Source: Pseudobdellovibrionaceae bacterium
GTDB lineage: Bacteria > Bdellovibrionota > Bdellovibrionia > Bdellovibrionales > JAMPXM01
Assembly (NCBI GenBank): GCA_947462815.1
Contig: CANHQR010000027.1
Span: 1-43,792, forward strand
Direction: 5' to 3'
DNA length: 43,792 nucleotides
The notes under the pieces are model-generated. The model saw nothing but the letters and a program-made list of their open reading frames with translations. It ran no database searches and was not told the DNA's origin. Both the position numbers and the translations under genes were made by a program. This document shows, one piece after another, positions 7,342 to 11,802 of the stretch. Within the stretch, counting starts at the first letter, position 1. Every line of letters starts with the position of its first letter.

Positions 7342-8366
7342 AAGTTCTCCTGACCACGTCGTTGCTCATCTTGACGTTGAAAGTGAGGCCGCCAATCCGC
7401 CCGCCACAAATACTCCAGCATACAATTGACGGCCAAACCACCTAGCAAATGCCACATAAAGTGCGTGCCATAGGGCCAAGTCTCAAGGTGATGGTGAGCA
7501 ATGTGAACGTCGAGCTGCCGAAAGCCAATCGCAAGGACCATGATGAGAACACCGGCAACAAGCCACCGCCGTGCACCTCGGGCCGCGGGGAGCCGAGCAT
7601 GTAAAACCAAGGGCACGAGATTCGCGACAACAAGACTTCCATAGGACAGCGAGATCAGTGTGACCGTCTCCCACTGTGACCACAAGTCAGCGGCCACATT
7701 CAAGACGATCAGCACCGAACTGATTGAGCCGAAGATCGCCCAGCCGCGTTTGACTCCTGCAAGCCTCGTCCAAAGATAAGCGGCGGCCCCCATCGCTAAA
7801 CCGTAGATGGGAATCCAATCAAGCAAATACCAAAACTCGTGGCTTCGCGTCGCATGGTAGACGGTACCGCCAATGAAACTCGCGAACATGATGGGCAGTC
7901 CCCAGCGAGTCACAGAATAAGGTCCGAATTCACGATTTCTTTTCCACCATCGCCAAATAATCCATAAAAAAATAAAATTGCTGAGAGAATTGAGTGGTTC
8001 GACGACCGGCGGATGACCGAGGACGGTTTCCGTGTAGATTGGTCCGGAGTCTCCGACTTGAAAGTGCCGAGGCACAAGTTCACCGAGCCGTTGAATTAGC
8101 CAAACAAGCGTCGCCCCAATTTCCGAAAGCCAAGAATCAGAGCCACCATCCGAGGTACACAAAGATGCTAAAAAATTCTCGAGTTCAGGAAGCTGCCGAT
8201 GTTTCACTCCGCCGATCTGATGACTTGGAAAGCTTGAAATCCAAGATGAAACCCTCGAAGCCTCGAACCAAGGAGCAAGAAAATTCCTCAGGGTCTGGTC
8301 GATCTTCAGCGACCCGAACGGCAAAACAGCGAAAAAGCAAAGCGCAACAAAGGCCAAAAATGACAT
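7338..8366 (-). CDS. Alkaline ceramidase-family membrane hydrolase
   Basis: A 342-residue membrane protein of the ceramidase (PF05875) branch of the CREST superfamily. Motifs in order are [10 protein letters not shown] at about 122, [19 protein letters not shown] at 166-184 and HFMWH near residue 305. In eukaryotic alkaline ceramidases the equivalent positions supply three zinc-binding His, an Asp and a Ser. The His and Asp positions are present here, while the Ser seems to be replaced by Gly next to a Thr. About seven membrane segments follow an unusual N-terminal segment of about 110 residues. The start at 8366 has an ideal AAGGAG nine bases upstream; an in-frame ATG at 8444 does not. The expected reaction is amide hydrolysis of a ceramide-like lipid; the natural substrate is unknown. 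Confidence 0.82.
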
Positions 8367-9235
8367 CGGGGTTGACTCCTTGGACCGGCCCTGGAAAGTC
8401 TGTTGCGGCTCAAGCCGTTGCGCAATACCAAACTCTCGGCTCAAAGGCTTCGGTAGTGGGTCACAATCTTCGGGAAGGACAAAGCTTGTCTCGTCAGAAA
8501 TTAAACAAGTATTCCAAGCCTCTGAAGCGAGGCTCGTTCGCCCATTCTAAAGGTCAGACCGCAGCTCGTTCGAGCGCGAAATCGCATCAGGCAGAACGCC
8601 TCGATCAAAATTGGCTCCAGTCGGTGCTGCCCTCGCCGCAAAAATCGAACGACCTCAGCGATGAGCAAAAACGCGAGCGAATCGCGGCCTGTTTCGCAGA
8701 GATTATGGAAACCCTGGGCTTGGACCTGAATGACGATTCTCTGGCGGACTCGCCTCGGCGTATGGCGAAAATGTACGTCGACGAGGTCTTTTCAGGCCTC
8801 AATCCGGCGAATGTCCCCAAGATCACGCTGATGAAGAACAGCATGAATTACGACCAGATGATTGTCGTTCGGGACATTAACGTGATGTCGACCTGCGAAC
8901 ACCACTTCCAAACGATTCATGGAACCGCGGTGGTCGCCTACATTCCGACTCAAAAGGTGATTGGGCTTTCTAAAATCAATCGCATCGTCGACTTCTTCTC
9001 GCGTCGCCCACAAGTGCAAGAGCGACTTACCAAGCAGATCGCCGATGCCTTGCAGACTCTCCTCGAAACTCCTCACATCGCCGTATCCATTCGAGCCAAA
9101 CACTACTGTGTCATCGCTCGCGGGATTCGCGATACGGGTTCGGAGACCTCGACATCAGATTTGCGCGGGGACTTCCGAGAGGACTTGGCAACTCGAGACG
9201 AATTTCTCGCTGCGGCCGCATCGCCTTCTCGCTGA
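8360..9235 (+). CDS. folE: GTP cyclohydrolase I with basic N-terminal extension
   Basis: GTP cyclohydrolase I (EC 3.5.4.16), first step of tetrahydrofolate or pterin synthesis, converting GTP to dihydroneopterin triphosphate. The catalytic core occupies the last 190 residues: [10 protein letters not shown], the zinc and active-site [31 protein letters not shown], and [11 protein letters not shown] with the second Cys ligand. The first 100 residues from the ATG at 8360 are basic, Ser/Lys-rich and not part of the known fold. That ATG has an AAAGG box six bases away but overlaps the divergent ceramidase start by seven bases. A GTG at 8456 is an alternative start. The open frame extends upstream to 7994 only as antisense of the ceramidase gene. 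Confidence 0.92.
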
Positions 9236-9268
9236 GATCGGCTCGGCAACAACCCGACCCCATGGGCG

Positions 9269-9296
9269 AAAAAATCGCCGAGGACTGTTCCTCGGC
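9269..9296 (-). terminator. Intrinsic terminator of the Lys/Arg-rich microgene
   Basis: Perfect 8-bp arms at 9277-9284 and 9289-9296 with a 4-base loop. Read on the minus strand, the hairpin is followed by GA and six T. It lies 67 bases past the stop of the gene at 9364-9474 and points the right way for it. No T-run follows on the plus strand, so it does not serve folE well. Confidence 0.8.
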
Positions 9297-9363
9297 AACC
9301 TCATGCTTGAAGCAATGGGACCGAGCCGTCGATTTTTGAACGAATGCTCGGCCCTCTGTGGTC

Positions 9364-9474
9364 TTAGCGCTTCTTCTTACGGCCCGTGAGGCTCTTCTTC
9401 TTTGCCAAACGGCGCTTGTGATGCTTGTTAGCCGGACGCTTTTTCTTCGTGGCGACTTTTTTCTTTTTTGCCAT
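9364..9474 (-). CDS. 36-residue Lys/Arg-rich basic microprotein
   Basis: A very short gene I read directly on the minus strand: start MAKKKKVATKKKRPANKHHK, ending SLTGRKKKR and TAA. About half of all residues are Lys or Arg, with two His and no acidic residue. An AAGGAG ribosome binding site lies about nine bases before the ATG, and a strong intrinsic terminator follows at 9269-9296, so this is a complete transcription unit. The composition suggests nucleic-acid binding, as for tiny ribosomal proteins (Thx or AURKAIP1/bS22-like) or histone H1-like tails, but I cannot place it in a family. An overlapping frame on the same strand (9428-9703, E/K/T-rich) is less convincing because it lacks these signals. 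Confidence 0.75.
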   Translation of the reverse strand: MAKKKKVATKKKRPANKHHKRRLAKKKSLTGRKKKR

Positions 9475-9711
9475 TTTTTCGTGCTCCTTCTGTTTCTTGT
9501 GGCTTTTCGGTTCTTTCAGGTTCGTTTGTTTTGGGTTCGTTGGCTTCGCTCGTCTCTGTCGTTTGTTTCTGTCGTTTGTTTCTGTGTCGTCCGTCTGCGC
9601 TTCGACGCCGTTTCTGCAACGTTTCGGCCGCGAGGACGCACCTCGCGCCTGAGCTGATTTCGCCGCATTTGCAGCTTGCCGCCATCTCTTCTCGCATTAT
9701 CAAATCAAAGT
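9475..9711 (-). other. Probable leader/promoter region of the microgene
   Basis: The stretch upstream of the microgene is strongly strand-biased (T-rich on plus, A-rich on minus) and contains direct repeats around 9553-9585 with a TTTCTGTCGTTTG-like unit. It separates divergent genes, so promoters for both the microgene and the YbaK-type gene should lie here. No clear promoter boxes or operator could be assigned. Confidence 0.35.
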
Positions 9712-10398
9712 ATGTCGCAAAAGCAAGTCCCCCCGCCGACTTCCGAGGCCTTCGAGCCCCCGGCTTTGTCGGGAGCTGAAGGCCAATCGAAATCTCAGCT
9801 TCCCCTGCCCGAAGCTCTTAACGACGAACCTCGAGGGCGGAAGTGGCTTCGCGAACTGGGATATCGCTTTCGCGATCACGTGTTTGAGTATGTGGAAAAA
9901 GGTGGCACTTCCTACTCCTCCGTGGCGATCGGTGCTTCCGAACACGCTGTGATCAAAACGTTGATCTTCCAAGCCACACCGATGGCCGGCGCGAGTCTTC
10001 CGACCGACTTGGCCCCAACAGATGGTCACCTCGTGGTGTTGATGCACGGCGATTGGAATGTCGACACCAAGGCTCTTCTTGTGCAGCTTGTGGATCTGAA
10101 GGAATCGCATGAATTGCATGAACCGGTGGCCACTTCGAATCAAGTTTTGCGCAAGGTTGCAGCTGCGGATCCGCAGCGCGCGGAGCATTGGACGGGATAT
10201 CGAGTGGGCGGGACGGCGCCTTTTGCGTTGGCAACCCCCCTCTCGATTTACATCGAGTCCAGCATCCTCGATCTGCCTCGAATTTGGATCAATGCCGGTG
10301 CAAGAGGCCATCTGTTGGAAATGGAGACGTCCACGCTCACCAAGACACTCCAGTTGAAGCCTATTCGTGCCGGTAAACCGCGAGCTCCGCGAGTTTAA
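9712..10398 (+). CDS. YbaK/EbsC-type aminoacyl-tRNA deacylase-like protein
   Basis: A 228-residue cytoplasmic protein with a YbaK-like domain from about residue 50. Signs are YSSVAIGASEHAVIKTLIF with the conserved Lys in the KTL motif, LVVLMHGDWNVDTKAL, YRVGGTAPFA (the family GGxxPFG-type loop), and INAGARGHLLEM close to the end. Such proteins hydrolyse mischarged aminoacyl-tRNAs (for example Cys-tRNAPro) in trans. The start at 9712 was chosen over 9676 because it leaves the Pro-rich, probably disordered N-terminus shorter; neither has a strong ribosome binding site. It lies 96 bases before the UbiB-like gene on the same strand, so cotranscription is possible. The exact tRNA substrate cannot be predicted. 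Confidence 0.83.
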   Translation: MSQKQVPPPTSEAFEPPALSGAEGQSKSQLPLPEALNDEPRGRKWLRELGYRFRDHVFEYVEKGGTSYSSVAIGASEHAVIKTLIFQATPMAGASLPTDLAPTDGHLVVLMHGDWNVDTKALLVQLVDLKESHELHEPVATSNQVLRKVAAADPQRAEHWTGYRVGGTAPFALATPLSIYIESSILDLPRIWINAGARGHLLEMETSTLTKTLQLKPIRAGKPRAPRV

Positions 10399-10494: not shown

Positions 10495-11802
10495 ATGCGT
10501 AAAAGTTTTGGCAGTCGCTCCATTGAACTTCTCAGTCTCGCCGCGCGAGTCGGCGCTCGAGAGGCGGCTCATCGTTGGCTGGGGTCAAGCGCCAATGATC
10601 CCAAGTCGGCCGAAGCCTCACGACTCAAACAAGCTCAAGCAATCGTCGAAAGTCTCTCGCAACTCAAAGGCGCGGCCATGAAGGTCGGGCAATTGCTCAG
10701 CATCGATGCAGGCGATTACTTTCCGCCTGAAGCACTTGAAATCCTCGCTCGCCTCCAAGCTCAAGCTGAGCCAATTCCCTTTAGCCAGCTGGAGCCTGTC
10801 CTTTTGGAGGATTTGGGGCTAGAGCGTTTTCGTGATTTCAAAAATCTCAATCGCACACCCGTGGCCTCGGCGAGCATTGGGCAAGTCCATCGCGCAGAAC
10901 TCAACGGTGAAAGCGTCGCTTTGAAGATTCAATATCCGGGTGTCGCCGAATCCATTGATGCCGATCTCGCCATCGTGCGAAAGCTTGGCCAAACCCTTGC
11001 GCAGCTGAGTGGCCGGCAAGAAATTGAATTGAGTCCTGTCTTTGAAGAGCTCCGACGAGTGCTTCACCAAGAAGCCGATTATCGCCTGGAGTTACAGGCT
11101 CTCGAAGACTATCGCCTACACGCCCTCGGTCTCGATGGGATTCGCGTACCCGTAGGAATCCGCACCCACAGTGGCCGTCGTGTGCTCACGATGTCCTGGG
11201 AGAACGGCGTGAGTCTCGACGAGTGGATGCGCTCCAAGCCACCCGTCGCACGCCGCGAGAGACTGGCGCGCGCGATGCTCGATTTGTTTTGCCGTGAGTT
11301 TTTTGTTTGGGGAATGGTGCAAACCGATCCGAATTTCGCCAACTTCCTGATTTCACCCAAAGACGAGCTGGTGCTGTTGGACTTCGGAGCCACACTTCGC
11401 TACGAAGAAGACTTCCGCAAAGACTATACACGATTCCTTCGAACGATGGGCGGTTTGGATCGTCAGGCGATTCTCGCCGAAGGTATTCGCTTTGGACTTC
11501 TCGACGAACGCGAGGGCGAAGAGGCCCGCGAAAACTTTTATCAACTGATGTGCTGCTCGGTCGAACCTTTCTTTGTTTCCCGACAACCCTTTGCCTTCGA
11601 AGACATTGATTATGCTCGACGGACTCGAGAGGCCGGACAGAAGTTCGCCATGAGTCTCAAGTACTCCGCTCCCCCGCATCGTATTTTGTTTTTACACCGC
11701 AAACTCGGTGGACTCTTCAACTTCGTCAAACGTCTCGATGTGAGACTAGATTTGACGGAGTTCTGGCAACGTATGGTCGGCAGCGAGCTACCCACACGCT
11801 GA
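10495..11802 (+). CDS. ABC1/UbiB (ADCK) kinase-like protein
   Basis: A 435-residue member of the UbiB/ABC1/ADCK atypical kinase family. Family marks are the KxGQ motif (MKVGQLLS, Lys63 to Gln66), the Ala-rich nucleotide loop in PVASASIGQVHRAEL, the ALKIQYPGV Lys strand, QTDPNFANFL corresponding to the catalytic loop, and LLDFGA replacing the DFG. These proteins are ATPases or kinases that support isoprenoid quinone synthesis or lipid homeostasis at membranes. No C-terminal membrane segment pair is obvious, unlike E. coli UbiB, so a soluble ADCK-like role is likelier. No other ubiquinone or menaquinone genes are in the window, so the pathway link is from family knowledge only. Confidence 0.9.
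   Translation: MRKSFGSRSIELLSLAARVGAREAAHRWLGSSANDPKSAEASRLKQAQAIVESLSQLKGAAMKVGQLLSIDAGDYFPPEALEILARLQAQAEPIPFSQLEPVLLEDLGLERFRDFKNLNRTPVASASIGQVHRAELNGESVALKIQYPGVAESIDADLAIVRKLGQTLAQLSGRQEIELSPVFEELRRVLHQEADYRLELQALEDYRLHALGLDGIRVPVGIRTHSGRRVLTMSWENGVSLDEWMRSKPPVARRERLARAMLDLFCREFFVWGMVQTDPNFANFLISPKDELVLLDFGATLRYEEDFRKDYTRFLRTMGGLDRQAILAEGIRFGLLDEREGEEARENFYQLMCCSVEPFFVSRQPFAFEDIDYARRTREAGQKFAMSLKYSAPPHRILFLHRKLGGLFNFVKRLDVRLDLTEFWQRMVGSELPTR

Follow-up and report, generated by a model that had tools for sequence, protein, structure and literature searches.

The window, a stretch of 43,792 nucleotides from an uncultured metagenome-assembled genome (MAG), carries on its minus strand a hidden microgene of 36 codons (Table 1). 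This is a real gene of the translated type that has an initiation site and a terminator to itself. It occurs in a single copy per genome across much of the phylum Bdellovibrionota, with its protein sequence kept, and this conservation identifies it as a true housekeeping gene. By analogy with known small ribosomal proteins, the peptide is probably a lineage-specific, rRNA-binding protein of the ribosome in Bdellovibrionota.

Table 1 Features of the microgene and its expression signals in the window.
Feature	Position	Strand	Basis
36-aa microgene MAKKKKVATKKKRPANKHHKRRLAKKKSLTGRKKKR, ATG...TAA	9364..9474	minus	ORF list, homologues, purifying selection
Shine-Dalgarno site AAGGAG, 9 nt 5' of the ATG	9484..9489	minus	read in the sequence
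Intrinsic terminator: GC-rich stem of 8 bp with a 4-nt loop, followed by GATTTTTT	9269..9296	minus	folding and scan
Predicted helix, residues 17-34, most of the conserved core inside	9373..9426	minus	AlphaFold2

The reading frame starts at an ATG (9474-9472) and ends in a clean TAA stop (9366-9364), as the original prediction had described, and the AAGGAG ribosome binding site named there is indeed present at 9489-9484. The stop is followed by 67 untranslated nucleotides and then by the terminator, which reads GCCGAGGA-ACAG-TCCTCGGC-GATTTTTT on the minus strand, with the stem-loop at 9296-9277 and the T-tract at 9274-9269. Folding of a 56-nt stretch gave a minimum free energy of -24.3 kcal/mol (z -3.95) with 0 shuffles equally stable, in good agreement with the earlier description of a strong and oriented terminator. 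Read on the plus strand, on which a folE-like frame ends at 9235, the hairpin has no T-tract; hence, the terminator belongs to the microgene and not to folE. It was recovered independently by a scan of the regions downstream of the homologues, and it was missed by a simple consensus scan, probably because the pairing runs into the T-tract. A consensus promoter scan of positions 9200-9760 found no promoter. A structured RNA in place of a protein was rejected, as an Rfam search for structured RNA returned no match.

Lysine and arginine account for 20 of the 36 residues (56%), which is more than the "nearly half" first estimated, and the claimed lack of acidic residues was borne out (0 aspartate or glutamate). 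In the AlphaFold2 model, residues 1-16 form a free tail ahead of the helix, and the mean pLDDT is 76, rising to about 91 for residues 21-30.

The spread of homologues was assessed within Bdellovibrionota genomes. With the peptide as query, homologues were detected in other genomes of its own GTDB family (f1), and the set was widened stepwise with iterated profiles A1, A2, A3 and A4, comprising 10, 20, 26 and 41 sequences, respectively. Profile A1 matched 11 genomes of f1 at E 1e-11 or better. Based on the iterated searches, 11 of the 13 f1 genomes contain a homologue, one each, and the two genomes without a match are incomplete (57% and 76%). With profiles A2 and A3 the matches extended to most genera of the large sister family f9 and, weakly, to f11 and f12. 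Most f9 genomes contain a homologue, as do some of those in f2, f4, f6, f11 and the distant f12. At E <= 0.01, profile A4 matched 77 of the 369 genomes of the phylum, with a single match in each. Two of its weakest matches (genomes G170 and G246), once read out, were unlike true members. Profile variants A6 and A8, built around f12 and f4 members, yielded further members in f4. A single copy was also found in complete genomes of the genus-level group g20, which has many of these and which, for that reason, we tentatively take to be Bdellovibrio. No copy was detectable in many genomes of f4, f6, f8 and f12, so that the microgene is not universal in the phylum unless the missing copies have diverged beyond detection; either real absence or divergence may account for them. 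A contig scan with 10 sequences returned one close relative, a MAG named "Bdellovibrionaceae bacterium" (JAEUWE010000236.1), which is the closest named relative found.

The homologues are 27-46 aa long and have in common the conserved core N-x-x-H-x-[KR]-R-[LIV]-x-K-K-[KR]-x-[ML]. K/R make up 52% of the residues in the 41 homologues, and D/E are absent. The f2 homologue L033 (genome G027) has a GTG start, as in Borrelia bS22, and a longer C-terminal tail.

Several lines of evidence bear on whether such a short and biased sequence is a gene under selection. Scored with a leave-out profile of its relatives, the peptide reached 63.3 bits, compared with 17.6 ± 4.1 bits for 5000 self-shuffles (maximum 37.4). 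Low-complexity chance matches were controlled with a reversed-sequence decoy profile of the same composition, which gave a best E of 0.002 in 141 genomes of the order, whereas most members score at E 1e-6 to 1e-14. Among the 41 aligned members the start codon is ATG in 40/41 and GTG in 1/41, and a Shine-Dalgarno site of the GGAG, GGGGA or GGGAG type lies upstream of nearly all of them. A hairpin with a T-tract occurs within 140 nt 3' of the ORF in 20 of the 41 members, compared with 1.2 expected from shuffles. For disjoint pairs of relatives, pN/pS was 0.19 when pooled (0.10-0.38 per pair), and differences at codon positions 1, 2 and 3 numbered 35, 33 and 106, respectively. ORF identity between f1 relatives was 0.68-0.83, and most of the 150-bp flanks on either side were near the shuffled baseline. 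The substitutions, the ORF standing between unalignable flanks, the Shine-Dalgarno sites and the terminators together show that purifying selection acts on the protein. Arginine is encoded by CGT or CGC in 58 of 81 codons, compared with 39.8 expected from the flanking genes (z 4.3); highly expressed genes show such a preference, which, together with the strong Shine-Dalgarno sites, hints at high expression of the microgene. The hidden gene of the original prediction is thus strongly supported.

The genomic neighborhood was read from the translations of adjacent frames. In the window and in genomes of group g5, the microgene is flanked by a convergent folE-like gene on one side and by a YbaK-like or AarF-like gene on the other; in g5 one of the latter two is still found with the microgene and folE. 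Divergently upstream of the microgene in the window are a YbaK-like aminoacyl-tRNA deacylase frame (9676-10398, plus strand) and an AarF/ABC1-like kinase frame (10495-11802, plus strand). The folE-like (GTP cyclohydrolase I) frame of the window (7994-9235, plus strand) has, from its first start codon, a long basic low-complexity N-terminal extension; since the folE-like homologue at locus L129 has 229 aa, translation probably begins further along the frame. In g2 and g3 a sirtuin-like gene lies upstream of the microgene, and in g15 a phosphoglycerate-mutase-like gene is directly 3' of the homologue. In several f9 groups the microgene is directly 3' of a Tex-like gene in the same orientation, and still other groups have different neighbors. 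Tex is a transcription accessory factor. In three f9 genera (L134:4118-4225, L135:4313-4423 and L137:4091-4201) the homologue follows the Tex-like S1-domain gene immediately, and the two possibly form one operon. No ribosomal operon was found near the microgene in the loci examined. The protein is kept, and the neighborhood is not.

Of the two roles originally suggested for the peptide, in the ribosome or in the nucleoid, we favor the ribosomal one because the gene is single-copy, evolves slowly, shows the codon bias and strong Shine-Dalgarno sites described above, and encodes a product resembling bS22 and bL37 in size and composition. Single-copy occurrence, wide conservation in the lineage and purifying selection are also what is generally seen for small ribosomal proteins. 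From these properties we infer rRNA binding and stable membership in the ribosome. The microgene would give rise to a constitutive, abundant basic protein of 27-46 residues that forms a component of the ribosome. In solution, its basic N-terminal tail would have no fixed structure. The helix at the C-terminal end, with the conserved core, would insert into a pocket of the 16S or 23S rRNA. The inserted helix would neutralize rRNA phosphates, as bS22, bL37 and bTHX do.

Searches of Pfam and NCBIfam with the 41 members gave no meaningful family match, and PDB sequence searches gave no match to any solved ribosomal chain. In the literature on Bdellovibrio small or ribosomal proteins we found nothing on the microgene, and we found no Bdellovibrionota ribosome structure; the authors of a Bdellovibrio proteome study state that small proteins were under-represented in it (PMC12546842). 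Several known ribosomal proteins resemble the family in being small and basic. One of them is the actinobacterial 50S protein bL37, which has 24 aa, starts with MAKR and was first recognized through structures (PMC5876184), but its score against the family profile did not exceed that of shuffles (p 0.64). The very short basic ribosomal peptide bTHX also differed from the family: when scored against the family profile, 1919 of 2000 shuffled versions of bTHX did as well or better. The other small basic ribosomal proteins or segments compared, namely bL34, bL35, bL32, bL33 and the C-terminus of bS21, gave no clear score above shuffles (E. coli sequences). The shuffle test used E. coli and Thermus control sequences, and the bS22, mS38, eL41 and bL37 query sequences were confirmed against PDB chains. 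A ribosomal protein new to description, specific to Bdellovibrionota and unrelated to bS22, bL37, bL38 or bTHX, would occupy an rRNA pocket that is not filled by protein in other bacteria, and we regard this version of the ribosomal reading as a realistic but tentative one.

Another special case of the ribosomal reading, which we consider possible though doubtful, is that the peptide is the Bdellovibrionota form of bS22/mS38/eL41, diverged past sequence detection. The bS22, mS38 and eL41 proteins form a helix of the small subunit bound by h2, h27, h44 and h45 beneath the decoding centre. Like the family, bS22 (AURKAIP1/COX24-domain, PF08213, with mS38 and eL41/eS32 as analogues) is more than half Lys/Arg, helical and encoded by a single gene. 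bS22 and eL41 are also similar in size to the family, at about 25-33 aa, and the bS22 of M. smegmatis, C. acnes and F. johnsoniae have 30-33 aa and a similar composition. Conversely, the family, in its length, K/R content and predicted helix, agrees with the bS22 type, a helical protein of about 30 aa in which Lys and Arg exceed half of the residues. The Borrelia bS22 (61% K/R, GUG start) was likewise missed by annotation and was found only by cryo-EM and a translated search, and its authors expected further cases in other bacteria (PMC10618245). The C. acnes and M. smegmatis bS22 were also found through structures (PMC10085706).

By eye, human mS38 (M-N-H-H-K-Y-R-K-L-V-K-K-T-R-F-L-R-R-K) can be set against the peptide (A-N-K-H-H-K-R-R-L-A-K-K-K-S-L-T-G-R-K) in an ungapped register, and it scored above most of its own shuffles against an earlier family profile (30 of 2000 as good). 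With the larger profile, however, the uncorrected p values against own shuffles were 0.05 for human mS38, 0.05 for eL41 and 0.11-0.36 for the bS22 of four species. No usable alignment came out of hhalign: in comparisons with actinobacterial bS22 and mS38, 118 of 150 column shuffles scored as well, and with the Bacteroidota/Borrelia sequences only 7 columns were aligned, in an offset register. Homology to bS22/mS38 was therefore not supported by phmmer, by hmmsearch with shuffles or by hhalign with column shuffles, and no homology beyond shared composition was found. The missing match carries limited weight, since accepted bS22 of different phyla show no mutual phmmer matches either. The PF08213 (COX24_C) model had no match among the 41 members and none over its cut-off in 40 genomes (the window's own and 39 related ones), so the bS22 slot is not visibly occupied by another gene.

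Apart from a ribosomal protein, the peptide might be a conserved RNA-binding accessory factor, acting in ribosome assembly, in hibernation or as an RNA chaperone, and non-stoichiometric on the ribosome. The position downstream of the Tex-like S1-domain gene in several f9 genomes would agree with such a role, and size and charge also fit an RNA chaperone, but the Tex-like neighborhood is not kept outside f9, and we consider this role unlikely. A nucleoid-associated or nucleic-acid-condensing peptide, resembling a short histone-H1-like tail, would match the composition alone (more than half Lys/Arg, no acid). Low-complexity tails of this kind vary in length and repeat number. The family is unlike them, since N, H, R, L/I and M are conserved by position across distant families, the length is narrow and there is exactly one copy per genome; the nucleoid role originally suggested is thus improbable.

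There is little to favor an origin of the peptide as a C-terminal bS20 helix that became detached or was duplicated. The end of E. coli bS20, KNKAARHKAN, resembles KNKSARHKAK of f9 members, with 26 of 2000 shuffles as good, but the bS20 C-termini read in related genomes (KGVVHAKTAARKLSRLSK type) were no closer to the microprotein. Full-length bS20 is present over the cut-off in 38 of 40 genomes, including that of the window, and this very improbable reading was therefore dropped as largely refuted.

That there is no gene here at all, and that the peptide is a lysine-rich stretch of a longer frame or that the overlapping frame 9428-9703, which does exist in the window, is the gene instead, has next to no probability given the purifying selection, the conserved start, stop and Shine-Dalgarno site and the result of the reversed-profile decoy. 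In the four closest relatives compared, the frame corresponding to the longer one stays open over just 44, 37, 11 and 4 codons, and the longer frame was rejected as a gene. With homologues and a synonymous signal found and the longer frame closed, both objections anticipated in the original prediction fall away.

If the peptide is ribosomal, it would represent an extra ribosome component for a phylum of mostly predatory bacteria, one that is invisible to annotation models, and it would provide a ready sequence for any helical density left unassigned in a future map of the Bdellovibrio ribosome. The case also shows that housekeeping genes this short and basic can be found by iterated profile searches combined with start-site, terminator and substitution evidence. 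The family also bears on the question of whether the mS38/eL41/bS22 pocket may be filled more widely than thought.
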